NCBI RefSeq assembly: GCF_019904235.1
Contig: NZ_CP063202.1
Span: 744,001 to 808,000 of the forward strand
Reading direction: 5' to 3'
Origin: Erythrobacter sp. SCSIO 43205
GTDB lineage: Bacteria; Pseudomonadota; Alphaproteobacteria; Sphingomonadales; Sphingomonadaceae
DNA: 64,000 bases
Shown: positions 39,434 to 57,891 of the stretch, one piece after another
Layout of the letters: each line of letters starts with the position of its first letter
How positions within the stretch are numbered: the first letter of the stretch is position 1
Made by a program: the position numbers and the translations under genes
Notes under the pieces: generated by a model
What the model was told of the DNA's origin: nothing
The model's database searches: none
What the model saw: only the letters and a program-made list of their open reading frames with translations

Positions 39434-39456
39434 CTCTCTCTCCCAATTTCGTGTCA

Positions 39457-40824
39457 TCATTTCGCTGTGAATATCCGGTAGCCCCACGGCTCCATTGCAA
39501 GGCTTGTCATTCCCACAAATGTCACATCCTCGCCGCTCATCGCGTCCGCAAACGCGCCGTGGTGACGTGCAAGCTCAAAAGTCACGTCCTGACCGCGTGG
39601 CGATAGGTTGAAGACTGCGAAAACGCGTGCCTCGCCCTCGCCGCGCACAAAGCTCAGCACGTTGGATGAAGCGGAATTAGGCACCTCGACAAGCGGTGCG
39701 CCATGCGGACCATTGTGCAGTGCCGTCTCAGCGGTCTTTAAAGCAATCAGTCGCTTGAACAGGGGCGCGTACTCACCCTCTTTCCACTCAATCTCATCCT
39801 TCTCGAAGAATGCGAGCTGGCGGTCCAAATCCGCTTCTTGACCGTTGTAGATGAGCGGGATGCCTGGAGCCACAAAGCTCAGCGCAATCGCACCTTCATA
39901 GGCAGGGCCGTAAATTTCGCTTGCCACACCGTCCCAGGAATTTTGGTCATGATTGTCTGTGTACATCATGCGCATCGCACCATCGGGCCAGGAAACCTTT
40001 TGCGTGGTAAAGTAATTGCGCATGGCATTGGCATTGGCATCACCGCGCGCAATCTCTTGCATGACATCTTTCCAGCTCCACGCATAAGTCGCTTCAAACG
40101 CGCCATAGTGCATATCGCGGCTGTCCCATTCAGCGAGCATGAATACAGGTTTGATCGCATCAAGCTCAGCGCGCGCGTTCTGCCAAAAATCGAGCGGTAC
40201 ATAGCCAGCCACATCCGCGCGGTAACCGTCAATGTCGAACTCGCGCACCCAGTAGGTGAGGCTGCCGGTCATATATTCGCGCAAATCCGGGTTGGAAAAA
40301 TCGAAGTCGGCAACATCGGACCAATCGGTGCCCTCAGGCGGCATCATCTCGCCTTCTGGTGTCTTTGTGTACCACTCTGGATGCTTTGTAACGAGCGCGT
40401 TATCCCACGCCGAATGGTTTGCCACCCAATCGAGAATGACCTTGAGGCCTAGTCGATGCGCCTCATCCACAAAGGCGCGGAACTCATCCTCTGTGCCCAA
40501 ATCGGGGTTCACCGCGCGGTAGTCTTTCACCGCATAGGGGCTGCCCAATGTGCCTTTGCGCTTCTCCTCGCCAATCGGATGGATCGGCATCAGCCAGATG
40601 ATATCGACGCCCATTTCGGCAAGGCGCGGCAATTGCGCTTGCGCGGCCTTGAACGTTCCCTCGCTTGTAAACTGGCGCGTGTTCATCTGGTAGATGACGG
40701 CATCGGCGACCCAGTCAGGCGACTGCACCTGCGCCAAGTCACTCGGTTCATAGGAGGAAGTTGAAGCGGTGTCGCAGCTCGCCAAAGCCAGAGCAGCGGC
40801 AGCGGTTAAAAGCAGATTACGCAT
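39457..40824 (-). CDS. Alpha-amylase family (GH13) lipoprotein
   Basis: 455 residues with a lipoprotein signal (lipobox LASC, Cys17, followed by Asp at +2, which in E. coli favours inner-membrane retention). The four GH13 regions are present: LDWVANHS (I), GYRADVAG with the nucleophile Asp (II), MLAEWD with the acid Glu (III) and YTDNHDQN (IV). The short C-terminal domain ends GYRIFTAK. It would degrade maltodextrins at the periplasmic face. Start 40824 is set by the signal peptide, with GGGGG upstream. It overlaps the MFS gene stop by 8 nt. Confidence 0.94.
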   Translation of the reverse strand: MRNLLLTAAAALALASCDTASTSSYEPSDLAQVQSPDWVADAVIYQMNTRQFTSEGTFKAAQAQLPRLAEMGVDIIWLMPIHPIGEEKRKGTLGSPYAVKDYRAVNPDLGTEDEFRAFVDEAHRLGLKVILDWVANHSAWDNALVTKHPEWYTKTPEGEMMPPEGTDWSDVADFDFSNPDLREYMTGSLTYWVREFDIDGYRADVAGYVPLDFWQNARAELDAIKPVFMLAEWDSRDMHYGAFEATYAWSWKDVMQEIARGDANANAMRNYFTTQKVSWPDGAMRMMYTDNHDQNSWDGVASEIYGPAYEGAIALSFVAPGIPLIYNGQEADLDRQLAFFEKDEIEWKEGEYAPLFKRLIALKTAETALHNGPHGAPLVEVPNSASSNVLSFVRGEGEARVFAVFNLSPRGQDVTFELARHHGAFADAMSGEDVTFVGMTSLAMEPWGYRIFTAK

Positions 40825-42379
40825 AGGTTGTTCCCCCGGTGGTTTCGCCCGGCACTTGCACGCGCAGCATCGCAAGGGCAGCAATCGTCCAACTGGCGGC
40901 GGCAAAAAGCATGGTCCAGATGGGTTCGCCCGGGAAGAACGCGAGCATGACGCTGCCCATCACCGTCGCCACGAGCAATTGCGGTACCACAATGAAGACG
41001 TTGAAAAGGCCCATGTAAATGCCGAGCTTTCTCTGTGGCAGGCTGCTTGCAAGAATGGCGTAGGGCATGGCGAGGATCGAGGCCCAGGCGATGCCTTTGA
41101 GCACCTCGCAGATAATCAGAAGGTTCGGATCGCGCAGCACGAAATAGCCGAAGAAACCGAGCGCCCCCAGTAAGAGGCACGTCATATGCGTTTTCGCCTT
41201 GCCAATTTTTCCCGAAAGCCACGGCAGCACGAGTAGAGCTGCGATAGCGGCGACACCGTTCTGGACGGTGTAGATGACGTTCCACCAATTCGCGCCTGCG
41301 TTATACGCCTCGCTTGTTGGGTCGGTGCTGCCGTAGAAATATTGCGAGACAATCGGCCCTGAATATATCCACATGATGAAAAGCGCTGACCAGCTGAAAA
41401 ACTGCACCAGAGCAAGGCGCTTCATCGTTTCAGGCATTCCGGAAAAATCGCCAACGATGCTGGAGAGCATATTGGCGGCCTTCCCTTGCTTGGCCATTGA
41501 AATGCCGATGGCAGAGAGCACGCCATAGGTCGCAAGGAGGCCGCCAAGGAGAAAGATTTCCTTCTCAAGGCCGAGCGGGGCGACCGACAATGTGACAAGG
41601 GCACCTGCTGCAAGCCACAGGGCAGGGCTGATAAAGCCTTTCGCTGCCAATCCTTCGATCCCTGCGCTGTCTTCGACATCGCGCTCCTCTTCGAAGGCGG
41701 CCATTTCTTCGGGCGAGTATTCTTTGACCGTTATCACGGTCCACGCGATCGCGCTGAACAAAGCAAAGCTGCCTGCCCAGAAGCTCCATCTGACAGTATC
41801 GGGGATCTGGCCGTCGGCGGCCGTGTTGCTAACCCCGAACTGTGCGAGCAGCCAGGGGAAGATCGCCGCCACCACTGCGCCTGCTCCGATGAACGCGGTC
41901 TGCACGGCATAGCCGGTTGCGTGCTGCGACTTGCTGAGCATATCGCCGACAAAGGCGCGAAAGGGCTCCATCGCGATATTGAGGCTCGCATCGAGGATCC
42001 AGAGCAGCATAGCGGCAAACAAGAGCGGGGCAGCAAAGGCTGGCGCGATAGGCATCAGGAAAAGCGAGATCGCCGAGAATAAGGCGCCCGTCATAAAGTA
42101 AGGCCGGCGGCGTCCGAAGCGGTTCCAGGTCTTGTCCGAGAGGTGCCCGATAATCGGCTGCACAATAAGCCCGGTCAGCGGCGCTGCCACCCAAAGGGCG
42201 GGAAGGTCGTCCATGCTCGCGCCGAGCGTCTGAAAGATGCGGCTCATATTGCCGTTTTGCAACACAAAGCCGATCTGGATGCCGAAAAAGCCGAAGCTCA
42301 TATTGGCAAGGCTCATCCAGCCCAGTTGTGGCTTTTGCCTCGTGCTGGTAACACCGCCAGCGCTTCTGGCTATCGCCAT
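40817..42379 (-). CDS. MFS sugar transporter (SLC45/GPH-like maltose carrier)
   Basis: 520-residue inner-membrane carrier with about twelve helices. SMANMSFGFFGIQIGF-like opening (here LANMSFGFFGIQIGF), then the loop GHLSDKTWNRFGRRRPYFMTG, a D-x-x-RRR signature typical of sucrose/maltose carriers of the SLC45/GPH group. The central loop (EEMAAFEEERDVEDSAG) is acidic. In maltodextrin loci of sphingomonads and Caulobacter this type imports maltose. ATG 42379 has GGAGAG before it. First gene of the minus-strand operon, divergent from the GH13 gene at 42685. Confidence 0.92.
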   Translation of the reverse strand: MAIARSAGGVTSTRQKPQLGWMSLANMSFGFFGIQIGFVLQNGNMSRIFQTLGASMDDLPALWVAAPLTGLIVQPIIGHLSDKTWNRFGRRRPYFMTGALFSAISLFLMPIAPAFAAPLLFAAMLLWILDASLNIAMEPFRAFVGDMLSKSQHATGYAVQTAFIGAGAVVAAIFPWLLAQFGVSNTAADGQIPDTVRWSFWAGSFALFSAIAWTVITVKEYSPEEMAAFEEERDVEDSAGIEGLAAKGFISPALWLAAGALVTLSVAPLGLEKEIFLLGGLLATYGVLSAIGISMAKQGKAANMLSSIVGDFSGMPETMKRLALVQFFSWSALFIMWIYSGPIVSQYFYGSTDPTSEAYNAGANWWNVIYTVQNGVAAIAALLVLPWLSGKIGKAKTHMTCLLLGALGFFGYFVLRDPNLLIICEVLKGIAWASILAMPYAILASSLPQRKLGIYMGLFNVFIVVPQLLVATVMGSVMLAFFPGEPIWTMLFAAASWTIAALAMLRVQVPGETTGGTTYA

Positions 42380-42501
42380 GATTGCTCTCCCGTTCGGGGC
42401 TTGACGCGCCCTTAGCGCACGCACCCCCATCCCTTTCGCGTTTTGTCACGCGCGACTAGGGCGTGAAACACAGCTTGTTCTCATCGCGCAATTTGCCGAG
42501 A

Positions 42502-42517
42502 TTGCAAATTTTTGCAA
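42502..42517. promoter_or_regulatory. Candidate LacI-family operator
   Basis: TTGCAAA-TT-TTTGCAA, a perfect 7-bp inverted repeat with a 2-nt centre, 123 nt from the MFS start and 168 nt from the GH13 start. LacI-family sites are typically palindromes of 14-20 bp. The same architecture recurs at 52108-52127. Confidence 0.6.
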
Positions 42518-42634
42518 GTTATTGTGAAGAATTTCAGTTTCCTGGGCCATGTGCGTGCGGCATTATAACGAATATATTTCTGAAATTCAGAGGCATAGAC
42601 TCGTGCTGTCGTCCTCTCGTGCGGACCATCAAGG

Positions 42635-42644
42635 ATTTGCAAAT
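42635..42644. promoter_or_regulatory. Second TTTGCAAA palindrome before the GH13 gene
   Basis: ATTTGCAAAT, a perfect 10-bp palindrome 41 nt before the start codon. It may be a second half of the operator system or an overlapping promoter site. Confidence 0.35.
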
Positions 42645-42684
42645 ATTCTCAACTAATGCCAATCAGGCATCAGGAGAGGATGGG

Positions 42685-44505
42685 ATGAAACGAATCTTTT
42701 TAGCTTGCCTTCTGGGGCTCGGAGTCGTTGGTGGCGCCGCTTTTGCGATGAATGAAGCTCCGGCGCAGGCGCCTTCTTTCAGAGAGCGCCCCGCTGAGGA
42801 TGAAGTTGTCTACTTTGTGCTACCGGACCGCTTCAGCAATGGCGATGCGTCCAATGACACAGGTGGCATTGAGGGTGGCCGGCTGGATCACGGGTTCGAC
42901 CCCGCTCACAAGGGCTTTTACCACGGCGGCGACCTTGCAGGGCTGACGGGGAAGCTAGATTACCTGGAAGGGATGGGCGTGACCGCGATCTGGTTCGCGC
43001 CGATCTTTGAAAACAAGCCCGTTCAAGGGCCAGAGGGCGATGAGAGCGCGGGCTATCACGGCTATTGGGTCACTGACTTTACCAGCATCGACCCGCATTT
43101 TGGCACCAATGAAGAGTTCAAGGCTTTCGTCGATGCGGCGCACGCGCGCGGGATGAAGGTCTATATGGACATAATCACCAACCACACCGCCGACGTGATC
43201 CAGTATGAAGAGGGCTACGATTATCGCAGCCTTGCAGACTTCCCCTATTCGCGCCGTGGCGGCTCTGAAGGTGAGCTTATTAACGAGGGCTTTGCAGGCG
43301 ACAGCGACCAGTCGGTTGAAAACTTCGCTAAGCTGACCTCGCCCGATTTCGCTTACACGCCCTATATTCCCCAAGGCGAAACGGGCGTGAAAGTCCCCGC
43401 CTGGCTCAACGACCCGATCTACTACCACAATCGGGGCAGCACGACCTTTAGCGGCGAAAGCAGCCGCTATGGCGATTTTGCCGGGCTCGATGACCTTTAC
43501 ACAGAGCACCCGCGCGTCGTCGAAGGCATGATCGACATCTACGCCAGTTGGATCACGAGGTTTGGTATCGACGGCTTTCGCATCGACACCGCCAAGCACG
43601 TGAACTCTGAATTCTGGCAGGCTTTTGTGCCTGCGATGCAAGAGACGGCCGAAGCGAAGGGGATTCCCAACTTCCTCATCTTTGGCGAGGTCTATTCCGA
43701 CAGTCCTAACAGCGGTTTTCTAGCGCAGTTCACACGCCGCGATGGTTTTCCAGCGGTTCTCGATTTCGCCTTCCAATCCGCCATCCGCGCGAGCCTCGGC
43801 AAAAACGCACCGCCAAGCGTCATCGTCGATATGTTCGATGGCGATGTGAACTATGAAGGCGGCGAGGCTGCTGCGCGAAAAATGCCAACCTTCCTTGGCA
43901 ATCACGATATGGGGCGTTTTTCAACGCTGGTGAAAGCGGACAATCCAGGTATTTCGCGGGACGAGCTTCTGGCCCGCGTCAAGCTTGGCCATGCTATGTT
44001 GATGTCGCTGCGTGGCAATCCGGTGATCTATTACGGCGACGAGCAAGGGTTTGTCGGTGATGGCTGGGACCAGGCGGCGCGCGAAGATATGTTTCCGAGC
44101 CTGACCGAAAGCTACAATGACAATGACCTTATCGGGACTGATGCGACCACGGCGCAAGATAACTTTGACCGTTCTCATCCATTGTACGTTCTGATTAGTG
44201 AGCTTGCAGCTATCCGCGCCAAGCATCCCGCGCTTCGTCGCGGCACGCAAGCGGTGCGCAGCTATAATGATGAAGCGCCCGGCCTTGTCAGCTTCTCGCG
44301 CTTCGATCCTGAAACCGGCGCGGAATATCTTCTGGCCTTTAATACGAGCGATACAGCCATCGAAGTCAATTCGGCCATCGGGTACAAGACAAATGCCCTC
44401 AAAACCCTCAGTGGTAATTGCCCTGCGACGGTTGTGGCCCCTGGCTCTGTCCGTCTCAGCCTTCCTGCCTTTGGGTGGTGCATAGCCAAAGCGAGATCCA
44501 ATTAA
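42685..44505 (+). CDS. Exported GH13 alpha-amylase/cyclomaltodextrinase-like enzyme
   Basis: 606 residues with a signal peptide (IFLACLLGLGVVGGAAFA). The GH13 barrel has MDIITNHTAD (I), GFRIDTAKHV with nucleophile Asp301 (II), FLIFGEVYSDS with acid Glu335 (III) and FLGNHDMGRF with Asp408 (IV). An insert after region I (residues 175-290) carries DDLYTEHP. A C-terminal beta domain follows. Related periplasmic enzymes degrade alpha-1,4 or alpha-1,6 glucans. Start ATG 42685 follows AGGAGAGG; an ATG five bases earlier is out of frame. First of four close-spaced genes. Confidence 0.94.
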   Translation: MKRIFLACLLGLGVVGGAAFAMNEAPAQAPSFRERPAEDEVVYFVLPDRFSNGDASNDTGGIEGGRLDHGFDPAHKGFYHGGDLAGLTGKLDYLEGMGVTAIWFAPIFENKPVQGPEGDESAGYHGYWVTDFTSIDPHFGTNEEFKAFVDAAHARGMKVYMDIITNHTADVIQYEEGYDYRSLADFPYSRRGGSEGELINEGFAGDSDQSVENFAKLTSPDFAYTPYIPQGETGVKVPAWLNDPIYYHNRGSTTFSGESSRYGDFAGLDDLYTEHPRVVEGMIDIYASWITRFGIDGFRIDTAKHVNSEFWQAFVPAMQETAEAKGIPNFLIFGEVYSDSPNSGFLAQFTRRDGFPAVLDFAFQSAIRASLGKNAPPSVIVDMFDGDVNYEGGEAAARKMPTFLGNHDMGRFSTLVKADNPGISRDELLARVKLGHAMLMSLRGNPVIYYGDEQGFVGDGWDQAAREDMFPSLTESYNDNDLIGTDATTAQDNFDRSHPLYVLISELAAIRAKHPALRRGTQAVRSYNDEAPGLVSFSRFDPETGAEYLLAFNTSDTAIEVNSAIGYKTNALKTLSGNCPATVVAPGSVRLSLPAFGWCIAKARSN

Positions 44506-46164
44506 GTGAACCGACAAACCGAAATACTTGCAGCCTCGCTCGATCCACAGGCCAAAGAATGGTGGCGCGGCGCGGTGATCTATCAGATATACCCGCGCAG
44601 CTTCCGCGACAGCAATGGCGACGGGATTGGCGACCTTAAAGGCATCGCTGACAACCTAGATTATGTCGCCTCGCTTGGCGTGGATGGCATCTGGATTTCG
44701 CCTTTCTTCACCTCGCCGATGAAGGACTTTGGCTATGACGTGGCGGATTATTGCGGCATTGATCCAAGTTTTGGCACCTTCGACGATTTTGACCAGCTGA
44801 TCGAGCGGGCCCATGCGCTTGGGCTTAAGGTGATTATCGATCAGGTCTATTCGCACACCTCGGATGAGCACGCGTGGTTTCAGGAAAGCCGCCAGGATCG
44901 CACCAACCCCAAAGCGGATTGGTATGTCTGGGCCGACCCCAAGCCCGATGGCTCGCCACCGTCCAATTGGCAGTCGGTCTTTGGCGGCTCGGCATGGGCG
45001 TGGGATGGGCCGCGCAAGCAGTATTATCTGCACAATTTCCTCGAAGAACAGCCCGACCTCAACGTGCACAACCGCGACGTGCAAGACGCGCTGCTGGACG
45101 TTGCTCGTTTCTGGCTCGATCGGGGAGTGGACGGGTTCAGGCTTGATGCTTTGAATTTCTCAATGCACGACCCAGAGTTTCGCGACAATCCGCCCTCGGG
45201 CGCGTCGATGGAGCAGGTCACGCGGCCGTTCGATATGCAGATCAAAATCTTCAATCAGAGCCACGCTGATATCCCGGCATTCATTGAGCGCATTCGCGAG
45301 ACTATCGATGAATACCCCGACCGCTTTACCGTTGCAGAGGTTGGTGGGCCTGAGCCGCTTGAGGAAATGAAGGCCTTCACCGCAGACGGCAAACGCCTCG
45401 ATTCTGCCTACAATTTCGATTTTCTGTATGCGCCCGACTTTACCGCTGAGCGGATCAAGGCATCGCTTGGCAATTGGGATGGCACACCGGGCGAGGGGTG
45501 GCCTTCGTGGGCCTTCTCGAACCACGACGCGCCGCGTTCGACCACGCGCTGGATGGGCGATGCGGACTATGGTCAGATGGCGCGGCTTGCGATGATGGTG
45601 CTCCTGTCGCTGCGCGGCAATCCGATCATCTATCAGGGCGAGGAACTGGCGCTGCCACAAGGAGAGGTGGCGTTTGAAGACTTGCAAGACCCGGAAGCAA
45701 TTGCCAACTGGCCGCACACTCTGGGACGCGATGGATCGCGAACGCCGCTCCCGTGGGTCAAGAATGCACCGCAAGCAGGTTTCTCTGATGCAAATCAGAC
45801 GTGGCTCAAGGTTGACCCGGTTCAGGCCGAGCGGGCCGTGGATCAGCAGACCGACGATGATGGTTCAGCGCTGAACCACACCCGCCGTCTTCTCGCGCTG
45901 CGTCGGTCTTTGCCGCCTCTGATTAGTGGGTCCAGTGAGCTCCTGAAGACGCCGTGCGACATCATCGCCTTTATCCGCCGTACCGAAAATCAAGCAGTGT
46001 TGTGTGCCTACAACCTTGGCTCGGCTGCGTACCAGTGGACACCGCCTGCTGAGTTTGCGCACAGCAACATCGTGGTGAGCGAGGCCGTCGGGGATGGTAG
46101 CGCGAAGCTTACTGAGCTAATGCCCCCTCACAGCGGGTATTGGGCGGTGAAGAAGGGCGCATAA
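44506..46164 (+). CDS. Cytoplasmic GH13 alpha-glucosidase (oligo-1,6-glucosidase type)
   Basis: 552 residues without signal peptide. Opening WWRGAVIYQIYPRSFRDSNG and GDLKGI are typical of the GH13 alpha-glucosidase group. Catalytic Asp214 lies in GFRLDALNFS, acid Glu278 in TVAEVGG, and Asp341 in FSNHD. It would hydrolyse imported maltose or isomaltose to glucose. GTG start 44506 begins right after the previous stop codon (TAAGTG), so translation is probably coupled. Confidence 0.95.
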   Translation: MNRQTEILAASLDPQAKEWWRGAVIYQIYPRSFRDSNGDGIGDLKGIADNLDYVASLGVDGIWISPFFTSPMKDFGYDVADYCGIDPSFGTFDDFDQLIERAHALGLKVIIDQVYSHTSDEHAWFQESRQDRTNPKADWYVWADPKPDGSPPSNWQSVFGGSAWAWDGPRKQYYLHNFLEEQPDLNVHNRDVQDALLDVARFWLDRGVDGFRLDALNFSMHDPEFRDNPPSGASMEQVTRPFDMQIKIFNQSHADIPAFIERIRETIDEYPDRFTVAEVGGPEPLEEMKAFTADGKRLDSAYNFDFLYAPDFTAERIKASLGNWDGTPGEGWPSWAFSNHDAPRSTTRWMGDADYGQMARLAMMVLLSLRGNPIIYQGEELALPQGEVAFEDLQDPEAIANWPHTLGRDGSRTPLPWVKNAPQAGFSDANQTWLKVDPVQAERAVDQQTDDDGSALNHTRRLLALRRSLPPLISGSSELLKTPCDIIAFIRRTENQAVLCAYNLGSAAYQWTPPAEFAHSNIVVSEAVGDGSAKLTELMPPHSGYWAVKKGA

Positions 46165-46168
46165 CACG

Positions 46169-47197
46169 ATGGCTTCAGCCGGGGGTAAGGCGGGAAAAAA
46201 TGCAAGGCTGGAGGATATTGCCCGCCAGGCAGGGGTTTCGATCTCGACCGTCAGCCGTGCGCTCAACGACAGTCCGGCAGTTAACCGGCGCACCAAACAA
46301 GAAGTCTGGCGCATTGCGCGCGAGCATGATTATGATTTTCGCAGCACAATGCCGAGCGGTCCCGTCGGAGCGGACGCGACCATCGCGGTGATCGTTCCCG
46401 CTCCGCAAGCCCGCGAAACGCGGGTGGCCGACCCCTTCTTCCTAGAGCTTCTGGCCGGTATCGCTGAGGCGGCGCGTGATCGTAAGGTTGATCTTGTGAT
46501 CAGCCATATGTTCCCGCGCTCTGTCGAAGACCTTGAGTTTGCGATGACGACGAGCCGCGCGAAAGGCATGATCTTCATCGGGCAAAGTTCGCTTCACAAC
46601 GGTTTCAATGAACTTGCCAAGCGTGATCACAGCTTTGTTGTCTGGGGCGCGGACTTTCCCGATGCGCGTTATTGTACGGTTGGCTCTGACAATATGGCGG
46701 GCGGGCGGCGTGCTACGTCGCACCTCTTGAGGCTCGGGAGAGAACGGATATTGTTCCTAGGGGACACCGAGGCACCGGAGGCCGAACAGCGCTATCGCGG
46801 GTATCGCAACGCATTGGAGCAGGCCGGACGCGACGTTGACGACAGTCTGGTTCTGCCAGCGCATTTCGATGTGCAATCCGGAGAATCCTCAGTGCGCTCG
46901 GCTATCGAAAGCGGCCTCAAATTCGACGCCGTCTTTGCGGCGAGTGATCTTATCGCCATTGGCGCAATCCGCGCGCTTGCCCTCACGGGTCGCTGTGTCC
47001 CCGGCGATGTCGCCGTGGTCGGCTATGACAATATTCCGGCCGCGCGCCTCGTCACCCCGCGCCTCACAACAATTGATCAAGACACCAACCTTGCAGGGCG
47101 GATGCTCGTATCTAAACTGATCGATACACAAGGCGGACAGGCTATTTCGGAAAGGCTGGAGACAAGCCTTCTTATTCGTGAGAGCTGCGGAGCTTAG
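46169..47197 (+). CDS. LacI family transcriptional regulator of the maltodextrin locus
   Basis: 342 residues. N-terminal helix-turn-helix RLEDIARQAGVSISTVSRALND with hinge SPAVNRRTKQEVWRIAREHDYD, then the periplasmic-binding-protein-like ligand domain (IAVIVPAPQARETRVADPFF, SDLIAIGAIRALALTGRCVPGDVAVVGYDN). The position inside the GH13 operon (4 nt after the glucosidase) points to a maltose-responsive repressor similar to Caulobacter/Xanthomonas MalR-type proteins. Likely targets are the palindromes at 42502 and 52108. The halogenase gene starts 3 nt after its stop. Confidence 0.94.
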   Translation: MASAGGKAGKNARLEDIARQAGVSISTVSRALNDSPAVNRRTKQEVWRIAREHDYDFRSTMPSGPVGADATIAVIVPAPQARETRVADPFFLELLAGIAEAARDRKVDLVISHMFPRSVEDLEFAMTTSRAKGMIFIGQSSLHNGFNELAKRDHSFVVWGADFPDARYCTVGSDNMAGGRRATSHLLRLGRERILFLGDTEAPEAEQRYRGYRNALEQAGRDVDDSLVLPAHFDVQSGESSVRSAIESGLKFDAVFAASDLIAIGAIRALALTGRCVPGDVAVVGYDNIPAARLVTPRLTTIDQDTNLAGRMLVSKLIDTQGGQAISERLETSLLIRESCGA

Positions 47198-47199
47198 CG

Positions 47200-48720
47200 A
47201 TGAGTGACGCAGGCGGACCCTTGCGCAAAATCGTCATAGTCGGCGGTGGGAGCGCCGGCTGGATGACGGCCGCCGCCCTTTCCGATGCCCTGGACACGTT
47301 CTGCGACATTACCCTAATCGAATCCGAAGCAATCGGCACGGTGGGTGTGGGCGAGGCAACAATCCCGCCCATCCGCAATTTCAACAGCCGCATCGGGATT
47401 GACGAAGCCACTTTCGTCAAGGAGACCGCAGGCTCCTACAAGCTGGGTATCCAGTTCGTTGATTGGTCGCGGCTGGGGCACGCCTACTTCCACCCCTTCG
47501 GCCAATATGGCGCAGAATTCGATAAGGTCCCGTTCTACCACTATTGGATGCGCGAGAGCCTTGCGGGGCGGATTGATGGCCCAATTGATGACTTTTCCAT
47601 GTGCTGGGCAATGGCAAAGGCGGGCAAGTTCGCGCATCCCGAGGCAGACCGGCGCAAGATCCAGTCGACATTCGATTATGCCTATCACTTCGATGCAGGG
47701 CTCTATGCTGCATTCCTGAGACGCCTTTCCGAAGCGCGAGGGGTCACCCGGATCGAGGGCCGTGTCACTGACGTAGCCCAGCGCGCCGAAGATGGCTTTA
47801 TCGAGAGCGTTACGCTCGACAATGGCCAGACGGTAGCAGGCGAGCTCTTTATCGACTGCAGCGGCTTTCGCGGGCTCCTGATCGAGGGCACACTCGAAGC
47901 GGGCTATGAGAATTGGCAGCGCTGGCTTCCGTGCGACCGGGCGGTCGCTGTACCTTGCGCCAAGCAAGCCGAGATCACGCCCTACACCCGCTCGACCGCC
48001 AAGACCGCAGGCTGGCAATGGCGCATCCCTCTGCAGCACCGCACCGGCAATGGCTATGTCCATTGCAGCGAGTTTATCAGCGAAGATGAGGCAACCGAAA
48101 CCCTGATGTCCTCGCTCGATGGAGAGGCGCAGGCCGATCCGCGAACACTACGATTTGTGACTGGCAAGCGCCGCAAGTTCTGGGATAAAAACTGCGTTGC
48201 GATTGGGCTGTCCGCTGGGTTCATGGAGCCGCTCGAATCGACCAGCCTCCACCTTATCCAATACGGTATCCTGCGGCTCATTGCGCTCTTGCCCGACCGT
48301 TCGATGTCGCCGCTTTTGGCGCGCGAGTACAATAGGCAGACCACAGGGGAATACGAGCGCATCCGCGATTTCCTGATCCTGCATTACAAAGCGACATCCC
48401 GCGATGACGCAGAGCTTTGGCGTTATTGCAGCGCCATGGAAGTGCCAGAGACACTGCAATACAAGATGGATCATTTCCGCGAGTACGGGATGCTGGTGTC
48501 TGATGAGCGCGAGCTATTCGCCAACCCAAGCTGGATCGCGGTTTATCTGGGGCAGGACATCGTGCCCGCTAAAGCCCCCGCCATCACGCAGATGCGCGAA
48601 GGCGTACCAGTGGCTGAGCGGATGCAGATGGTTGCAAGCGCAATGGACAGCGCCGTCGCCGAAATGCCGGCCCACGCAGACTTCCTCGCGAAATTCTGCC
48701 CCTCACCCATCGCGGCCTGA
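47200..48720 (+). CDS. Flavin-dependent halogenase (tryptophan-halogenase family), copy 1
   Basis: 506 residues. FAD motif VIVGGGSAGWMTAAAL at the N-terminus, VGVGEATIPPI, the Lys that would form the haloamine or position HOX at Lys81 (GSYKLGIQF), halogenase signature GWQWRIP at 271-277, and catalytic Glu346 in EPLESTSLHLI. All the catalytic residues of PrnA-type enzymes are thus kept. It belongs to the subgroup found with TBDRs and carbohydrate genes in Caulobacter, Xanthomonas and Sphingomonadales, whose substrate is not established; some relatives (BrvH) brominate indole in vitro. It is the last gene of the maltodextrin operon, 2 nt after the LacI gene. A reductase partner was not seen. 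Confidence 0.9.
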   Translation: MSDAGGPLRKIVIVGGGSAGWMTAAALSDALDTFCDITLIESEAIGTVGVGEATIPPIRNFNSRIGIDEATFVKETAGSYKLGIQFVDWSRLGHAYFHPFGQYGAEFDKVPFYHYWMRESLAGRIDGPIDDFSMCWAMAKAGKFAHPEADRRKIQSTFDYAYHFDAGLYAAFLRRLSEARGVTRIEGRVTDVAQRAEDGFIESVTLDNGQTVAGELFIDCSGFRGLLIEGTLEAGYENWQRWLPCDRAVAVPCAKQAEITPYTRSTAKTAGWQWRIPLQHRTGNGYVHCSEFISEDEATETLMSSLDGEAQADPRTLRFVTGKRRKFWDKNCVAIGLSAGFMEPLESTSLHLIQYGILRLIALLPDRSMSPLLAREYNRQTTGEYERIRDFLILHYKATSRDDAELWRYCSAMEVPETLQYKMDHFREYGMLVSDERELFANPSWIAVYLGQDIVPAKAPAITQMREGVPVAERMQMVASAMDSAVAEMPAHADFLAKFCPSPIAA

Positions 48721-48768
48721 CACAAGCCCCGCCGATAGGCACAACCAAATCACCTGCATGGTAAATGC

Positions 48769-48797
48769 AAAAGGGCCCGCTGTTGCCAGCGAGCCCT
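48769..48797 (-). terminator. Terminator of the TBDR (minus strand), near the halogenase end
   Basis: On the minus strand: stem AGGGCTCGCTG / CAGCGGGCCCT (11 bp with one T-G pair), loop GCAA, then TTT. It lies 37 nt past the TBDR stop codon and may also stop the halogenase transcript. Confidence 0.85.
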
Positions 48798-48833
48798 CTC
48801 TCAGTGGAAGTGCGACCCGGATCGCGTTTGTTT

Positions 48834-51599
48834 TTAGAAGTTCTTCCGAAGTGTGACGTTGAACGTGCGTCCGTAGATCTCGTGACGGCTTGGGAAGGCC
48901 CCCCCCGTCGCGGTGCCGTTCGAGAACAGGTCGTTCTGTGTCACGAACGGCTCGTTGGTAAGGTTGAACACTTCAAACAGAACGCCCAGACCTTTCAACG
49001 CACCGCTTTCTTCCTGGAATGTGTAGCCGATCTGCGCATCGATGATCGTCTCGTTTTGTGCATCTGCACCACTGAGAGAACCGTCGAAATTCTGCACTTC
49101 AGACAAGAAACCACTGCGGTAACGAGCCGCCAGTTTTGCCCGGAAACCATCTTTCTCGTAAAAGATGTCGCCTGACCACGTCGTCTCTGAGTAACCAGGA
49201 ATGTCGAGCGGGGTCATCGTTTCATCTTCGATCTCAGCGTCGGCATAGGTGTAGCTGAAGAAGCCGCCAAAGCCGTCGAGCGCAGGTGTCAGATCGCCGA
49301 AGTCGATCCGCACCGTACCCTCGATGCCCGTGATAGAGCCATCGGCAAAGTTGACCGGACCGCTGAACGAACCAGTTGCCAACTGAGGCTCGGCTGCAAG
49401 AATATCGCCAAACCCGGCGTTGTTGATCGGTTGCGTAAGGTCGATCACCTCGTTGAAGTCGATGATCCAGTCGGAAAGGTCCTTATGAAAGGCAGCGACA
49501 ATGATTGCAGAACCTGGCGAGAAGTACTTCTCGACTGAAAGGTCGAATGACTTCGATTCATAAGGCTGCAGGAACGGGTTGCCACCACCAAGGTTGAAGC
49601 AAACCAACGACGGCGGGTTAAACCCAATTACCGTGTCAGGGAATTGATCACCGTCTGTGTCAGTACAACTGAGCGGGTTGAAATTGATATTCTGATTTGC
49701 TGCCATCTGGTCAAGGCGTGCACGGGTCACGGTCTTTGCCGCTGCGAGGCGAACAAATGTATCGGTTCCAACTTCAAAGCTCAGGTTCAAACTGGGAAGC
49801 CAGTCATCGTAGCTTTCGCTGACGGTGTTCGTCAGGCCACCTCCGATGGTGCCAGTCGAGCTTTGCTTTGTATCTGCATAGCGCAGGCCGATGTTACCGC
49901 GTACCGGGATGGAACCCAGATCGCCATTGATGTTGGCTTGAACATAGAAGTTGTGAACTTCCTCATTCACCACCCACTCGGTGTCGAAGGTTCCGGGCTC
50001 AACGTCATAAGTGCCGTCAGTCAGGAAGCTTGATGGGTCATAAGCCAGGATGTTCTGCCCCAGATTGCCGGTATCAGTTGACCCGATGATTGAGCTTTGC
50101 GGCACTGCCAGAGAACCGCCAACAAAGGCGGGAGACGCGCGCAGGAATGCTTCGTTGGAATCGAAGTCTTTCTCACGGTCGGTGTACAGCCAGCCAAAGT
50201 TGATGCTCTCGATCAGGCCGCCACCAGATTCCCAAGTCGCTTGGGTGCGCAACTGGTGCAGTTCGTCATTGATGATCGGGCGCTTGATAAAGCCGACCTG
50301 GCCCCAGCCTCCCGGATCGGTGAGCAGGACGTTCGAAGGATCGGTGTAGTCGAGCAGGCCGTCGATTGAATACTCACCATTCTCAGGGAAGGTGAAGTTC
50401 AGAATGTCTTGCGCACCCGAACGGCCAGCGCCCGTGCCAGCATAGCTCTCATAATCGATGTCGTCGCGGTCAAGCTTGGAATAACCATAGTCGACCATGA
50501 AGCTCAGGCTATCGGTGATGCCGAAATCGGCATTGGCACCGATCGCAAAGATCTGTGCCTCATTGCCTTCGGTATCGGTGCGCAGAATAGGCACAACAGC
50601 CGAATAGGTCGCGCTGTCGGCAAATTCGCCGCTCTGGCCTGTTGCACTATCGAACGATGCACCGCTCCATGAGGCAATCGGAGTTTCTGTACCGCGGAAT
50701 ATACCAGAGTCCTTGGTGTCGGTATAGAAACTGTCGATCATGATGGCGACGCTGTCGCTAGGCTCGAACTGAAGCGAGCCAGCAATCGATGTGCGCTCAA
50801 ACTCGCGGCTCACCGCCCCTTGGCGCGGATTGTCCGAAGGATAGATAACGCCATTGGCATCAGTCGAAGTTTGGAATTGGTTGGTTTTCAACTCGCGCGA
50901 GATGAAATGCGTCGGGTTCGATTGGACTGTCACACCTAACGACCAGCCAAGGGTACCTGCATCATTCTGGTCGATATACGAACCAAAGAAGCGATAGCCA
51001 TTATCGGAGAAGTCAGGGTTGCGTGAGCCGCTGTCATTGTGGACGAATGTACCCGACACAGTCAATTGGCGGTCGGTATAGTCAAGCGGACGAACGGTGC
51101 GAAGATCAACTGCACCGGCGATGCCGATGGCAGCAAGACTTGCATCTGCTGTCTTGTAAACAACACCTTGCGAGATCAGTTCTGACGGGAACTGGTCAAA
51201 CTCAATGCCGCGGTTGTTGCCAGCCGATACGACTTCGCGTCCGTTCAAAAGCGCGAGCGAGAAGTCCGGGCCAAGGCCGCGGATCGAGATCTGTTGCGAA
51301 CGGCCGCGAACACGCTGCGCGGTAACGCCGGGGAGACGTGCAAGCGAGTCCGCGATCGACAGGTCAGGAAGCTGACCCAGATCTTCCGCAGAAATCACTT
51401 CAACAATTGAGGTCGCATCGCGCTTTGTTTCGAGCGAGCTCTCGATTGCGCTGCGGATCCCCGTCACCAGAATTTCGTTATCGGCACTTTCAACTTCCTG
51501 CGCAAAGGCAGGTGTTGCGGTCGCCATAAGCGCAAGCCCAGTTGCTGCCCCTGACAGCAAGCGGGCACTAACGTTCAAACGCTTCAGTCCCATAATCAT
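48834..51599 (-). CDS. TonB-dependent receptor next to the halogenases (maltodextrin-type)
   Basis: 921-residue receptor with a signal peptide (LLSGAATGLALMATATPAFAQ), box NEILVTGIRSAIESSLETKRDATSIVEVI, plug motifs LGQLPDLSIADSLARLPGV, ISIRGLGPDFSLALLNGR and a C-terminus RTFNVTLRKNF. The LETKRDATSIVEVISAEDIG-like plug defines the receptor class seen in Caulobacter MalA and Xanthomonas carbohydrate loci. Start ATG 51599 is set by GGAGAGGAC just upstream. It is convergent with halogenase 1 and divergent from the DUF6445-like gene, so it may be the outer-membrane porter for maltodextrins. Confidence 0.93.
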   Translation of the reverse strand: MIMGLKRLNVSARLLSGAATGLALMATATPAFAQEVESADNEILVTGIRSAIESSLETKRDATSIVEVISAEDLGQLPDLSIADSLARLPGVTAQRVRGRSQQISIRGLGPDFSLALLNGREVVSAGNNRGIEFDQFPSELISQGVVYKTADASLAAIGIAGAVDLRTVRPLDYTDRQLTVSGTFVHNDSGSRNPDFSDNGYRFFGSYIDQNDAGTLGWSLGVTVQSNPTHFISRELKTNQFQTSTDANGVIYPSDNPRQGAVSREFERTSIAGSLQFEPSDSVAIMIDSFYTDTKDSGIFRGTETPIASWSGASFDSATGQSGEFADSATYSAVVPILRTDTEGNEAQIFAIGANADFGITDSLSFMVDYGYSKLDRDDIDYESYAGTGAGRSGAQDILNFTFPENGEYSIDGLLDYTDPSNVLLTDPGGWGQVGFIKRPIINDELHQLRTQATWESGGGLIESINFGWLYTDREKDFDSNEAFLRASPAFVGGSLAVPQSSIIGSTDTGNLGQNILAYDPSSFLTDGTYDVEPGTFDTEWVVNEEVHNFYVQANINGDLGSIPVRGNIGLRYADTKQSSTGTIGGGLTNTVSESYDDWLPSLNLSFEVGTDTFVRLAAAKTVTRARLDQMAANQNINFNPLSCTDTDGDQFPDTVIGFNPPSLVCFNLGGGNPFLQPYESKSFDLSVEKYFSPGSAIIVAAFHKDLSDWIIDFNEVIDLTQPINNAGFGDILAAEPQLATGSFSGPVNFADGSITGIEGTVRIDFGDLTPALDGFGGFFSYTYADAEIEDETMTPLDIPGYSETTWSGDIFYEKDGFRAKLAARYRSGFLSEVQNFDGSLSGADAQNETIIDAQIGYTFQEESGALKGLGVLFEVFNLTNEPFVTQNDLFSNGTATGGAFPSRHEIYGRTFNVTLRKNF

Positions 51600-51986
51600 G
51601 TCCTCTCCATATGCATCACGGCTTCCCACGTGATTTGCACTTTTTTTCATAGCGCAGAGTTGTCGGAAGGCAAATCAGGAATCGAGGTGACGTGTCGTCC
51701 CAACTCATTTCTATTTTTTTATCCTATATTCAGATATTTAAGGGAAATTTGGACCAATTCTCACCTTGTAAGGTACAAGTTGATACTTTTGTGTGGCGAG
51801 CGGGCCACACTTTGGCGGTCGCTTTTTCATCGCGCTGAGTTTCTTTCCGTCTGCTATCTGGCTGAGTTCGTCCGCCGATTCAAATTACCTTTTTTATACA
51901 GTGCATTGTTGCACTCGATTGGCAATCAGTGACGTGGCTGATACGGTGTATCGCTGCGTAATTGCATGGAGAAGGGGGTGCCAGTC
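51600..51986. other. 387-nt divergent region between TBDR and DUF6445-like gene
   Basis: AT-rich for this genome. It holds an inverted repeat AGTGCA-TTGT-TGCACT (51900-51915), a small one ATACGGTGTAT (51941-51951), and distant GATTTGC/GCAAATC arms (about 51632-51678) related to the TTTGCAAA sites. No gene is supported. Confidence 0.55.
51900..51915. promoter_or_regulatory. Inverted repeat upstream of the DUF6445-like gene
   Basis: AGTGCA-TTGT-TGCACT, perfect 6-bp arms with a 4-nt spacer, 72 nt before the gene start. Possible regulator site. Confidence 0.4.
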
Positions 51987-52688
51987 ATGCGAAATTGGAA
52001 GATGTCCCTTGAGGAGTGGGAGATGAAGAGTTTCTCTGAGGGGAATCATGAATTTGTGTCCATTTCGAACTTTTTGCAAAGCCCTCAAGAAGCAGTTGAG
52101 GATGCCTGTTTGCAAAAATTTGCAAACATCACTCCGGCATATCCTGGCGTGCGTGCAGCAATCCCAAGCGCCTTTGCGATGGAGTTGCTCGCGGCTTTAT
52201 CCCCTTTGCTCGATACCCACTTTGGAAAGAGTGAGCGGGGTTGGGAGCTACAAGCCTGGTATTCTCTGGTTACAGCCCGCCCGGACGATTTGGTTCCGAT
52301 GCAATGCCTGCCCCACGTGGATGGAACTGATCCTGATCAGATCGCGATGATGCTGTATCTTCATCACACTGCGCATGGTGGAACGAGCTTTTTCAGACAT
52401 CGCTCCACTGGGCTTTCAGCTCTTACGGAGGAAACTTTTCCGAAATATCGCGAGGCACTAAAACGAGATGTTGAGCAATCTGGCTTGCCCAATCGTGCAT
52501 ATGTGACCGATGGTGCGCCGTATTTTGAAAAAATCCATGAAACTGATGGCGCGTTCAATCAGGCCATTCTCTACAGGGGAAATGTGCTTCACTCCGGCAT
52601 GATTGATAACAATGAACCACTGCCACCTGGCCCGCGTGAAGGGCGTTTGACGATCAATGCTTTTTTCCGTCCGACTGACACAAGATGA
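51987..52688 (+). CDS. DUF6445-like protein, 2-oxoglutarate oxygenase-like fold
   Basis: 233 residues, no signal peptide. The N-terminus contains FVSISNFLQSPQEAVEDAC and YPGVRAAIP as in DUF6445 proteins. The middle has LPHVDGTDPDQIAMMLYLHH, where HVD could be the HxD metal pair of cupin-like oxygenases, and ILYRGNVLHSGMIDN holds a possible distal His. The last strand is GRLTINAFFRP, with Arg for an anion. The family is usually next to flavin halogenases and TBDRs; its reaction is unknown. ATG 51987 with AAGGGGG upstream is preferred to ATG 51966. The halogenase follows after 9 nt. Confidence 0.7.
   Translation: MRNWKMSLEEWEMKSFSEGNHEFVSISNFLQSPQEAVEDACLQKFANITPAYPGVRAAIPSAFAMELLAALSPLLDTHFGKSERGWELQAWYSLVTARPDDLVPMQCLPHVDGTDPDQIAMMLYLHHTAHGGTSFFRHRSTGLSALTEETFPKYREALKRDVEQSGLPNRAYVTDGAPYFEKIHETDGAFNQAILYRGNVLHSGMIDNNEPLPPGPREGRLTINAFFRPTDTR
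52108..52127. promoter_or_regulatory. 20-bp palindrome inside the DUF6445-like coding region
   Basis: GTTTGCAAA-AA-TTTGCAAAC, a perfect 9-bp inverted repeat with a 2-nt centre, same core as the site at 42502 (TTGCAAA-NN-TTTGCAA). A further TTTGCAAA lies at 52073-52080. It starts 121 nt after the start codon and codes for CLQKFAN. Possible internal operator. Confidence 0.5.
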
Positions 52689-52697
52689 GAAATTCGA

Positions 52698-54185
52698 ATG
52701 AGTGATAAGAGCGTACAAAAGCTGGTCATTGTGGGTGGAGGGACCGCCGGATGGATTTGTGCAGCCGCTTTTGCTCGCCTGATGGGGAAAGCCCTTTCGA
52801 TTGAGCTGGTTGAATCGGATGCAATCGGCACGGTAGGCGTGGGCGAGGCGACAATCCCTCAGATCATTCGGCTCAACACGATCCTTGGTCTTGATGAACG
52901 TGAGTTTGTGAAGGCGACCAATGGAACCTTTAAGCTGGGTATTGAGTTTGTCGATTGGGGCAAGGTTGGCTCCAAATATCTGCACACTTTCGGAGATCCC
53001 GGCCTCAGCTTGGCGGGCGTGCCGTTCCACCAATATTGGTCTAGGGCCGCAGCCGAAGGGCACGAACACGACCTGTGGCATTATTCTCTGCACCAATACG
53101 CCGCCGACACAGCCAAATTTGGGAAGCTAGACCGGGTGGGCGACACGGCCATGACCGGGCTCGCCTATGCCTATCACTTCGATGCAAGCCTCTACGCCGA
53201 CTATCTGCGCGCCTACTCAAAACAACGCGGGGTCACCCGCACTGAAGGCATTGTTAGCGAAGTTGCGCGCGATGCCGAAAGCGGTGACATCACCTCGATC
53301 ACCTTAGGTGACGGGCGCAAAGTGGCGGGCGACTTTTTCATCGATTGCACGGGCTTCCGGGCGCTTCTTCTCGGCAAAGAACTTGGCGTTGGCTATAAGG
53401 ACTGGTCGCATTGGCTGCCGTGCAACAGCGCGCAAGCCGTGCCAAGTGAACGGCTCAAGACGGTTGTCCCCTATACCCGCGCGACCGCCAAGAGCGCAGG
53501 ATGGCAATGGCGCATTCCATTGCAGCACCGCACCGGCAATGGTCATGTCTATTCAAGCAATTTCATCTCGGACGATGAAGCGGGCCAAGTCCTGCTCGAA
53601 GGGCTCGATACAAAGCCGCTTACTGAACCCCGCCCTATCCGCTTTACCACCGGGCGGCGCGAGGCGTTCTGGTCGCACAATTGTGCCGCCATCGGGCTTG
53701 CGAGCGGTTTTCTCGAACCATTGGAATCGACCAGCATTCACCTTATCCAATCTCATGTGAGCCGCTTGATCCAATTGTTCCCCGGCAACAATAATGCGAG
53801 GGCCGAACGTAACGAATACAATCGCCGCTGTGCTGCGGAGTTCGAGCAAATCCGCGATTTTCTCATCCTGCATTACCACTGCACGACGCGAGAAGATTCG
53901 GAGTTCTGGTGCTATTGTAAGAATATGAACGTGCCTGACAGCGTCACAAACAAGATGGAGCTATTTGGCTCAAGCGGGCGGGTGGGACGCGATGCCGATG
54001 ACCTTTTCCGCGTTGCGAGTTGGGTGCAGGTGATGCTGGGGCAGGGCATAATGCCGCAAAGCTATGATCCAATGGCAAACCAGCTAAGCGATGCCGAACT
54101 TGCTGAGTTCCTTGGCAATGTGCGTAGACTGATTGAGCGTGCAACTGATCCTTTGCCAACGCATGAGCAATTCCTCGCGCAATAG
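52698..54185 (+). CDS. Flavin-dependent halogenase (tryptophan-halogenase family), copy 2
   Basis: 495 residues. FAD motif VIVGGGTAGWICAAAF, VGVGEATIPQI, Lys79 in GTFKLGIEF (same number as in PrnA), GWQWRIP at 268-274 and catalytic Glu343 in EPLESTSIHLI. It shares long identical stretches with copy 1 (IPLQHRTGNG, PLESTS, LGIQF/LGIEF) and is clearly a paralogue of the same subgroup. It is co-transcribed with the DUF6445-like gene. It converges with kynU, 7 nt apart, but a link to tryptophan breakdown is not shown. No flavin reductase is in the window. Confidence 0.9.
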   Translation: MSDKSVQKLVIVGGGTAGWICAAAFARLMGKALSIELVESDAIGTVGVGEATIPQIIRLNTILGLDEREFVKATNGTFKLGIEFVDWGKVGSKYLHTFGDPGLSLAGVPFHQYWSRAAAEGHEHDLWHYSLHQYAADTAKFGKLDRVGDTAMTGLAYAYHFDASLYADYLRAYSKQRGVTRTEGIVSEVARDAESGDITSITLGDGRKVAGDFFIDCTGFRALLLGKELGVGYKDWSHWLPCNSAQAVPSERLKTVVPYTRATAKSAGWQWRIPLQHRTGNGHVYSSNFISDDEAGQVLLEGLDTKPLTEPRPIRFTTGRREAFWSHNCAAIGLASGFLEPLESTSIHLIQSHVSRLIQLFPGNNNARAERNEYNRRCAAEFEQIRDFLILHYHCTTREDSEFWCYCKNMNVPDSVTNKMELFGSSGRVGRDADDLFRVASWVQVMLGQGIMPQSYDPMANQLSDAELAEFLGNVRRLIERATDPLPTHEQFLAQ

Positions 54186-54192
54186 CGCAGGA

Positions 54193-55428
54193 TCAGGTGA
54201 CCGCTGCTTTGGTCCGATATTCCTCGCGGTCCCATTCGGCGTTCACACAAATGGCGCGTAAACGCTCCACTGCCTCAGCAATATCGGCGAAAGCGAGATA
54301 AAGCGGGGTTACACCAAAGCGCATGATGTTTGGCGCGCGGAAATCGCCGACTACATCTCGTGCTTTTAGTGCCTGCATCATTTCATATGCGTGTGGGTGG
54401 GCGAAAGCGACCTGACTGCCGCGCTGTGCTGGATCGCGCGGGCAGATGAACTCAAAGCCGAACTCGCCGCATCGCTCTTCCATCAAAGTGACGAACAGCT
54501 CAGTCAATTGAACTGATTTGGCGCGCACCTTTGCCATGTCAGCTTCAAGCATGATGTCGACACCCTCTTCCAACGCTGCAAGGCCGAGCACCGGAGGCGT
54601 GCCGCATTGAAAGCGGTCGATGCCGCTGGCAGGTTTGAACTCTCCATCAAAATCGAAAGGCGCTGCGTGTCCGAACCATCCTGAAAGGACGGGCTGTGCG
54701 TCATGGTGGCGCTTTGCCGCAAAAAGGAAGCCAGGGGCTCCGGGGCCACCGTTCAGGAACTTATATCCGCAACCCACAGCGAAGTCTGCTTCCGCGCCAT
54801 TGAGATCGACCTCAATCGCGCCGCTTGAATGGCTAAGATCCCAGACGGTGAGCACGCCTTTTGCGTGGGCCTTTGCGGTGACCTCAGCCATATCGCGGAT
54901 GCGCGATGTCTTGTAATGTACTTGAGTGAGGAGCAGCACCGCGACATCCTCATCAAGCGCGTCTAGCACATCCTCTGGCGCAACCTCCCGGCATTCGAGC
55001 GAGCCGCCAGAGAAGCGCGCAAGGCCTTGCATCATGTAATTGTCGGTGGGGAAATTACCCGTCTCGGTGAGCAGAACCTTGCGACCTTCCTGCAAGGATA
55101 GCGCAGCGGTGAGCGCCTTGAAGATATTGATCGACGTGCTTTCGCCAGCGATAATCTCGCCCGGTTCCGCGCCCAGCAGCCGTGCAATCTTGTCGCCAAT
55201 GCGCGTCGGAGCGTTCACCCAGTCGGCGCCGACCCAAGAGGTGATCAGGCCTTGGGCCCACTCCTCATTGATGGTTGTGTTCATGCGGGCAATTGTCCGC
55301 TTTGGCAGCACGCCGAGCGAATTACCGTCGAGGTAGATGAGGCCATCGCGGATTACGAATTCGTCGCGAAATTTCGCCAGGGGATCGGCGGCATCCATCG
55401 CGGCAATATCAGCAGCAGTTATCGTCAT
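54193..55428 (-). CDS. kynU: Kynureninase
   Basis: PLP enzyme hydrolysing kynurenine to anthranilate and alanine. The 411 residues include YLDGNSLG, GESTSINIFKAL, TETGNFPTDNYM, VWDLSHSSGAIEVDL, the PLP Lys in GCGYKFLNGGPGAPGF and the C-terminal FRAPNIMRFGVTPLY. Length is typical. It is last in the four-gene phhA-kynA-kynB-kynU operon, and its start overlaps the kynB stop (ATGA). Confidence 0.97.
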   Translation of the reverse strand: MTITAADIAAMDAADPLAKFRDEFVIRDGLIYLDGNSLGVLPKRTIARMNTTINEEWAQGLITSWVGADWVNAPTRIGDKIARLLGAEPGEIIAGESTSINIFKALTAALSLQEGRKVLLTETGNFPTDNYMMQGLARFSGGSLECREVAPEDVLDALDEDVAVLLLTQVHYKTSRIRDMAEVTAKAHAKGVLTVWDLSHSSGAIEVDLNGAEADFAVGCGYKFLNGGPGAPGFLFAAKRHHDAQPVLSGWFGHAAPFDFDGEFKPASGIDRFQCGTPPVLGLAALEEGVDIMLEADMAKVRAKSVQLTELFVTLMEERCGEFGFEFICPRDPAQRGSQVAFAHPHAYEMMQALKARDVVGDFRAPNIMRFGVTPLYLAFADIAEAVERLRAICVNAEWDREEYRTKAAVT

Positions 55429-57827: not shown

Positions 57828-57891
57828 AGCAAACATCCTGAAAGGAGGGTGCTTGGATAAGCCATGATAGACTGCTTTGCGAAGGGTGGTG

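Follow-up and report, generated by a model that had tools for sequence, protein, structure and literature searches.

Flavin-dependent halogenases linked to a TonB-dependent receptor in Erythrobacter sp. SCSIO 43205: the receptor as a candidate substrate

Flavin-dependent halogenases include enzymes for which the native substrate is unknown. According to the accessible text of PMC5945002 and PMC7336383, this holds for BrvH and for the Xanthomonas halogenases. In vitro, BrvH slowly brominates indole at C3 and refuses tryptophan (PMC5945002, same text); the Xcc enzymes do not accept free tryptophan, and Xcc4156 has an open, lid-less active site, perhaps for peptides (PMC7336383, same text). Here we describe two such enzymes, HAL1 and HAL2, encoded together with a TonB-dependent receptor and a DUF6445 protein in Erythrobacter sp. 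SCSIO 43205, within a stretch of 64,000 nucleotides (the window; bases 744001–808000 of the one-contig 3.38-Mb genome). The genes belong to a predicted maltodextrin-uptake region. We tentatively propose that HAL1, HAL2 and the DUF6445 protein modify the receptor chain itself before its export, the predicted site being Trp 449.

BrvH (6frl) and Xcc4156 (6y1w) are, along with 9luq, the solved structures nearest to HAL1 and HAL2, and they share their motif group. Both were studied as isolated enzymes, however, and a word search of the available portions of PMC5945002 and PMC7336383 did not find "TonB". MibH-type peptide halogenases belong to the same superfamily, and MibH acts on a tryptophan-bearing lanthipeptide (PMC8269204, text available in part), but they are a distant match in PDB (5uao, E 3.6e-52 against HAL1) and the gaps searched in our locus hold no precursor peptide. 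OGFOD1/Tpa1 and bacterial EF-Tu prolyl hydroxylase rank high in fold searches with DUF6445 and follow the same facial-triad logic, but their identity to it is just 13–15 percent. The locus as a whole resembles the carbohydrate utilization (CUT) loci of Xanthomonas and Caulobacter, in which a receptor, glycosidases, an inner-membrane transporter and a LacI regulator occur together. In contrast to those, the present locus also places halogenases and a predicted 2-oxoglutarate (2OG) oxygenase under a common predicted operator. The word "halogenase" does not occur in the searchable part of PMC1790865.

Linkage of halogenases to receptors

In 22 genomes of the host family, a TIGR01782 receptor is found within 5 kb for 98 of 124 halogenases and within 10 kb for 114, while 60 of 135 such receptors have a halogenase within 5 kb. 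These counts use 135 of 153 receptor rows (16 below the cut-off and 2 split-hit fragments were dropped) and 124 of 126 halogenase rows (less 2 fragments of one broken gene). These enzymes are numerous: one genome encodes as many as 13 halogenases. Gene breakage or faulty assembly would seem to account for a halogenase in three pieces (G125:C11:85646-87022) and for several split genes in G007. The linkage extends to seven genomes outside the family (those of loci L143, L148, L125, L153, L123, L137 and L139), where 78 of 89 halogenases are within 10 kb of a receptor and 51 of 146 receptors are linked within 5 kb (146 of 148 receptor rows and 89 of 90 halogenase rows were used).

Linkage also follows phylogeny. 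On a receptor tree of 95 rows it changes 5 times, against 30.5 for shuffled labels, and the linked receptors form three clades, A (30), B (12) and C (13, window included). The tree holds 55 of the 60 linked receptors (five were not fetched) and 40 of the 75 unlinked ones, picked non-randomly by list order and genome spread; receptors whose nearest halogenase is more than 5 kb away count as "unlinked", and L204 lies about 6 kb from an array. When the halogenases (89 of 98 frames passed a filter on length and distance) are labeled by receptor clade, their own tree shows 5 changes versus 27.0 shuffled. Halogenase type thus follows receptor type.

Partner genes differ among the clades as well. SapC and Cupin_8 genes each occur within 8 kb of all 12 clade B receptors, and Cupin_8 is that close to 10 of 30 clade A receptors, whereas neither is found near any of the 75 unlinked receptors (the count used the 32 strong of 49 Cupin_8 rows and all 34 SapC rows). 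DUF6445 is within 8 kb of one of 12 clade B and one of 75 unlinked receptors. It was counted with 11 hits at first and then with all 24 from the 22 genomes, 10 of which are within 5 kb of a halogenase; results for clades B and C and for unlinked receptors were the same. Taken together, linkage, clade labels and partner genes argue that the unit is a receptor with its own putative tailoring set. The region G136:C1:1659223-1665468, with receptor, SapC, Cupin_8 and halogenase, is an example from clade B. A SapC gene is present in all 22 genomes, and 22 of 34 SapC hits are more than 5 kb from a halogenase.

Closer to the window, the whole gene set is conserved. A search with an alignment of DUF6445 gave 330 named loci, of which we kept the 80 best. 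The complete order GH13, GH13, LacI, HAL1, receptor, DUF6445, HAL2, in the same orientations, recurs in 27 of the 80, some of the others being interrupted by contig ends, and the arrangement therefore exceeds chance. Across these 27 loci, identity to the window is 75–84% for HAL1, 71–78% for HAL2, 66–76% for the receptor, 74–81% for LacI and 54–62% for DUF6445. A halogenase is encoded in 60 of the 80 named loci and a receptor in 58. The nearest named relatives are from Erythrobacter and Porphyrobacter; beyond the Erythrobacter group the same genes are grouped, but their orders differ. Families present in at least 5 of 41 regions are DUF6445, halogenase, two receptor types, LacI, GH13, MFS and GH97. 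Many of the loci L076–L102 (up to 22) carry a small c-type cytochrome-like gene, named by eye, after HAL2. A locus titled Arthrobacter sp. TPD3018 (L126) is arranged as in Sphingomonas L130 and L132 and is probably a mislabeled or mixed assembly.

Within a host-family sample of 149 genomes, 41 have DUF6445 and 102 a halogenase above the cut-off. On a tree of 33 DUF6445 proteins, 17 are encoded within 5 kb of a halogenase and 16 farther away, and this label changes 4 times compared with 11.4 after shuffling (none of 500 shuffles was as low). The tree takes 33 of 51 hits, omitting weak ones and also two that were strong but sat on short contigs (L018, one of the two, adjoins a halogenase); row L048, a broken copy, was taken unchanged. 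The second DUF6445 gene of our genome (G000:C1:1597209-1597868, L055) falls in a stand-alone clade with no halogenase nearby in the fetched regions.

An earlier reading of the window from its letters alone, hereafter the sequence-only reading, had suggested looking for co-occurrence of halogenase, DUF6445 and receptor in related genomes and had listed a lack of conserved co-occurrence of DUF6445 with the halogenases among its refuting observations; the three form a conserved unit. It also took the association of halogenases with TonB-dependent receptors for established knowledge, which did not emerge from the literature searched. Searches for halogenases with such receptors, SapC or polysaccharide returned nothing on point, and one on DUF6445 found no report. 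Because most subscription journals lay outside their reach, this absence is weak evidence of novelty.

The enzymes and the receptor tryptophan

HAL1 and HAL2 both have GxGxxG, the catalytic Lys, WxWxIP and the Glu, at every position named in the sequence-only reading (Table 1). Their remaining motifs (ATIPPI/HPFGQ in HAL1, ATIPQI/HTFGD in HAL2, YHG in neither) and the absence from both of the C-terminal Trp4 tryptophan-binding motif of groups A/B (PrnA/RebH/PyrH) give the pattern of "group C", the group of BrvH and the Xcc enzymes, in the motif scheme contained in the available part of PMC8269204. According to the same text, KrmI, also of group C, accepts free tryptophan, so the group C motif is a pointer to the substrate rather than proof. 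By eye, neither enzyme has a recognizable export signal. Among 89 halogenases, 11 lack the catalytic Lys or Glu, all of them in arrays of at least two; such copies, perhaps non-catalytic partners, occur beside clade A receptors (L051, L053, L156, L159, L161, L178, L182, L066, L176, L052 and L190). Given this distribution, the HAL1/HAL2 pair is not of that kind, and degenerate-copy status was rejected for it.

DUF6445 is predicted to be an Fe(II)/2OG oxygenase on two grounds. First, the HxD...H triad (H117, D119, H209), like the 2OG-binding R227, is invariant in 11 DUF6445 sequences. Second, a confident structural model (pLDDT 89.9) has a double-stranded beta-helix fold, 2OG oxygenases head both lists of fold matches, and the best match is OGFOD1, a ribosomal-protein hydroxylase. 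Several of the top matches are protein hydroxylases, with small-molecule oxygenases close behind (PasI 14.0, SnoN 13.1, HygX 13.0). A sequence search of PDB gave a single match (E 4), judged to be chance. The suggestion that DUF6445 is a second tailoring enzyme thus looks well placed, as far as triad, model and fold matches can tell.

As for the receptor, W449 is invariant in all 50 linked maltodextrin-type receptors, window included, from many groups (9 of 58 loci were omitted by score or distance), and is the sole Trp among their 80 invariant residues. In the receptor model (pLDDT 82.9) it lies in the stretch 406–452, between strands 382–405 and 453–474 and just before the latter; judged by general receptor topology, this loop would face the outside of the cell. 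Clade C receptors have the Trp in 13 of 13 cases, in an LTDPxGWG-like sequence. All 30 clade A receptors have Trp at a single alignment column, usually within N/T-W-G, and there 9 of the 12 clade B receptors show W-G. Among unlinked receptors, a Trp occupies the clade A/B column in 1 of 40 and the clade C column in 4 of 40, and no private conserved Trp was found in unlinked clades of at least five rows. Outside the family, [NTDSG]WG is present in 28 of 47 linked versus 10 of 38 unlinked receptors (p 0.0025, uncorrected for kinship); the motif was defined from the family set and run on the family and outside sets together. From the extra Trp-Gly motifs of linked receptors and the invariant W449 we infer that the enzymes may modify the receptor.

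Gene order and the predicted operator

The gene positions and families assigned in the sequence-only reading proved correct, as did the placing of HAL1 2 nt downstream of LacI. The plus strand carries GH13-GH13-LacI-HAL1 and, further along, DUF6445-HAL2, with the receptor gene between these two groups in the opposite orientation; the minus-strand GH97, GH13 and MFS genes are also part of the locus (Table 1).

Table 1. Features of the locus (positions within the window)
Feature	Position	Strand	Basis
GH97 glycosidase	37361..39487	-	Pfam PF10566, 360.7 bits
GH13 glycosidase	39457..40905	-	Pfam PF00128
MFS transporter, sugar type	40817..42430	-	Pfam PF07690 / PF13347
GH13 glycosidase, first of plus-strand operon	42463..44505	+	PF00128, 231 bits
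Predicted LacI operator TGCAAATTTTTGCA	42503..42516	.	Before GH13-GH13-LacI-HAL1 operon
GH13 glycosidase, second of operon	44506..46164	+	PF00128, 417.2 bits; NCBIfam match
LacI-family regulator	46169..47197	+	Pfam PF00356, PF13377
HAL1, flavin-dependent halogenase	47200..48720	+	PF04820, 632.7 bits; K81, WQWRIP 272, E346
TonB-dependent receptor	48834..51650	-	TIGR01782, 525.6 bits; model and PDB matches
Receptor Trp449 codon, in LTDPGGWGQVG; candidate modification site	50304..50306	-	Trp conservation
Diverged operator copy, variant TGCACTTTTTTTCA	51636..51649	-	Overlaps predicted receptor -10 box
DUF6445, predicted Fe(II)/2OG oxygenase	51966..52688	+	PF20043, 211.7 bits, above curated cut-off
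Exact operator TGCAAAAATTTGCA in DUF6445 gene	52111..52124	.	Genome pattern search
HAL2, flavin-dependent halogenase	52698..54185	+	PF04820, 608.3 bits; K79, WQWRIP 269, E343

Some listed starts are probably too early, to judge by ribosome-site-like sequence and operator position: the GTG at 42463 of the first GH13 gene (probably ATG near 42685), 51650 of the receptor (probably ATG 51599) and 51966 of DUF6445 (perhaps near 52023). A database entry for DUF6445 is shorter than the listed frame by 19 residues. The receptor score passes the TIGR01782 cut-off of 310 bits; the whole genome encodes three full-length halogenases and three receptors above this cut-off, and two of the three receptors adjoin halogenases. 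Past HAL2 and convergent with it, 54193–57929 encodes a kynureninase, a formamidase-type putative cyclase, a tryptophan 2,3-dioxygenase and a biopterin-dependent aromatic amino acid hydroxylase; in related loci the first three are missing after HAL2.

A 14-bp palindrome, TGCAAANNTTTGCA, occurs at exactly three places in the 3.38-Mb genome, with about 0.1 expected by base composition, and two of the three (42503 and 52111) are in this locus. At up to one mismatch the genome has 15 such places versus 4 for the reversed pattern. All 27 complete related loci retain the site near the operon start with at most one mismatch, and 22 of them have it exactly; for L078, L082 and L087 the tblastn match begins at the site or slightly ahead of it, because the query frame itself starts upstream of the site. 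Of 31 related loci, 28 keep the palindrome within DUF6445 to the same degree, 21 of them exactly, even as its center and some of the coded residues vary; L103 is truncated there. In front of the receptor gene we predict a promoter, TTTGCC-17-TATGAA (51674–51646, with a 17-nt spacer between the -35-like and -10-like boxes), and the leader TGCAG[AGT]TTTTTTCA is present in 28 of 29 related intergenic regions, the exception being L082 with TGCATTTTTTTTCA. The Hyphomonadaceae locus L104 has an exact palindrome ahead of its receptor gene. We infer that LacI binds these palindromes. Their occurrence at three places in the locus supports the predicted control of the locus by sugar through LacI, and with it the carbohydrate-responsive control put forward in the sequence-only reading. 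Elsewhere in the genome, two operator-type near-palindromes 24 bp apart (G000:C1:1021836-1021873) possibly mark another LacI-family regulon.

Candidate substrates and what they would mean

If the receptor is the substrate, the system could work as follows. In the absence of maltodextrin, LacI bound to the palindromes ahead of the operon, at the receptor promoter and in DUF6445 would hold all three units low; with maltodextrin, they would be expressed together. In the cytoplasm, HAL1 and HAL2 would brominate or chlorinate the loop tryptophan while the receptor is still unfolded, and DUF6445 would hydroxylate the same residue or one nearby. The finished loop would face outward and could tune sugar binding or shield the receptor. 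Substrate, halogenation and sugar induction are each read from genes and motifs here, and we regard the receptor as the likeliest single substrate while placing it well below an even chance.

A number of observations weigh against this proposal. To our knowledge, no halogenated receptor has been described. No halogenase lies within 5 kb of 75 of the 135 TIGR01782 receptors, and in the family set DUF6445 comes within 8 kb of a clade C receptor in just 6 of 13 cases. The invariant private Trp column differs by clade (alignment columns 1226, 777 and 1110), a small unlinked group of three rows has six conserved Trp, and stacking on sugar would explain an invariant loop Trp just as well. The number of halogenases is unrelated to the number of receptor Trp over all loci (rho 0.21, p 0.12) and within clades (-0.17, -0.46 and +0.22); the idea that more halogenases go with more receptor Trp was dropped. 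In a pre-stated test outside the family, WG per receptor was 1.64 for linked and 1.03 for unlinked receptors (p 0.035), a weak difference, and receptors with any WG numbered 34 of 47 linked against 25 of 38 (p 0.64). The WG count, having replicated weakly outside the family, was set aside as a universal mark of linked receptors. The clade C-type motif occurs there in 1 of 47 linked and 3 of 38 unlinked receptors. In the tree and motif tests kinship was handled by shuffling alone, and relatives inflate the results. Finally, the indole bromination by BrvH and the use of free tryptophan by KrmI fit a receptor poorly.

The enzymes may instead act on another peptide or protein, such as a short secreted peptide or an envelope protein encoded elsewhere, with the receptor as a co-regulated neighbor. 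We consider this possible, if on the doubtful side. Several of the best DUF6445 fold matches being protein hydroxylases would suit it, as would the Cupin_8 and SapC partners in sister cassettes and the open site of Xcc4156 suggested for peptides (PMC7336383, accessible text). However, when the three gaps of the locus were compared between the window and 26 related loci (27 regions), no conserved small ORF was found: the matches were just a conserved promoter block and the neighboring cytochrome c gene. On the same search of these gaps, an adjacent precursor peptide of the kind expected for a cluster making ribosomally synthesized and post-translationally modified peptides (RiPP) was set aside, although one may be encoded elsewhere. 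A distant substrate gene alone, moreover, leaves unexplained why halogenase type goes with receptor type.

Slightly more doubtful is a sugar-induced pathway acting on a diffusible small aromatic or signaling molecule, the receptor importing the sugar or the product. This was the preference of the sequence-only reading, and intact catalytic residues, predicted sugar control, C3 bromination of indole by BrvH (PMC5945002, accessible text) and free tryptophan as a KrmI substrate (PMC8269204, accessible text) speak for it. Yet no scaffold-making enzyme is among the families in at least 5 of 41 regions, unclustered neighbors being annotated in part, the Trp4 motif is missing in both halogenases and halogenase copies track receptor type; group C motifs, this tracking and the lack of a biosynthetic family leave the suggestion unsupported.

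A catabolic role, in which the imported material would bring an aromatic moiety (a phenolic group of a plant or algal glycan, for example) for the enzymes to act on after uptake, seems unlikely. The cassettes adjoin GH13/GH97 in some loci and other gene sets elsewhere, which would accord with such a role, but maltodextrin has no aromatic part, and halogen addition is, as far as we know, not usual in catabolism. Least of all do we expect a halogenated kynurenine/anthranilate pathway combining HAL1/HAL2 with the tryptophan 2,3-dioxygenase, formamidase and kynureninase genes at 54193–56973: these genes start 7 nt past HAL2, convergently, and a known chlorokynurenine pathway, that of taromycin, pairs a Trp halogenase with a dioxygenase, but none of the 29 loci with a HAL2 orthologue and at least 3 kb beyond it has any of the three, so that synteny makes the link unlikely, and the Trp4 motif is absent, although KrmI keeps free tryptophan possible for group C.

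Returning to the receptor as substrate, a broader and distinctly speculative version is that in many Proteobacteria sugar receptors of the outer membrane are halogenated and hydroxylated by enzymes of adjoining genes, in clade-specific sets (own halogenase types, with DUF6445 or SapC plus Cupin_8 as oxygenase partners), an invariant loop Trp being the target. Receptor linkage, the predicted common operator and the oxygenase partner make the native-substrate question directly testable. If the proposal is true, the locus would represent the first system for halogenation of bacterial envelope proteins known to us, receptor modification would be a new use for halogenases, and the orphan enzymes BrvH and Xcc4156 would gain a native role. 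Surface proteins would then be halogenated in response to food, with possible effects on sugar uptake and on recognition by phages or toxins, and possible use in the engineering of peptide-modifying enzymes.

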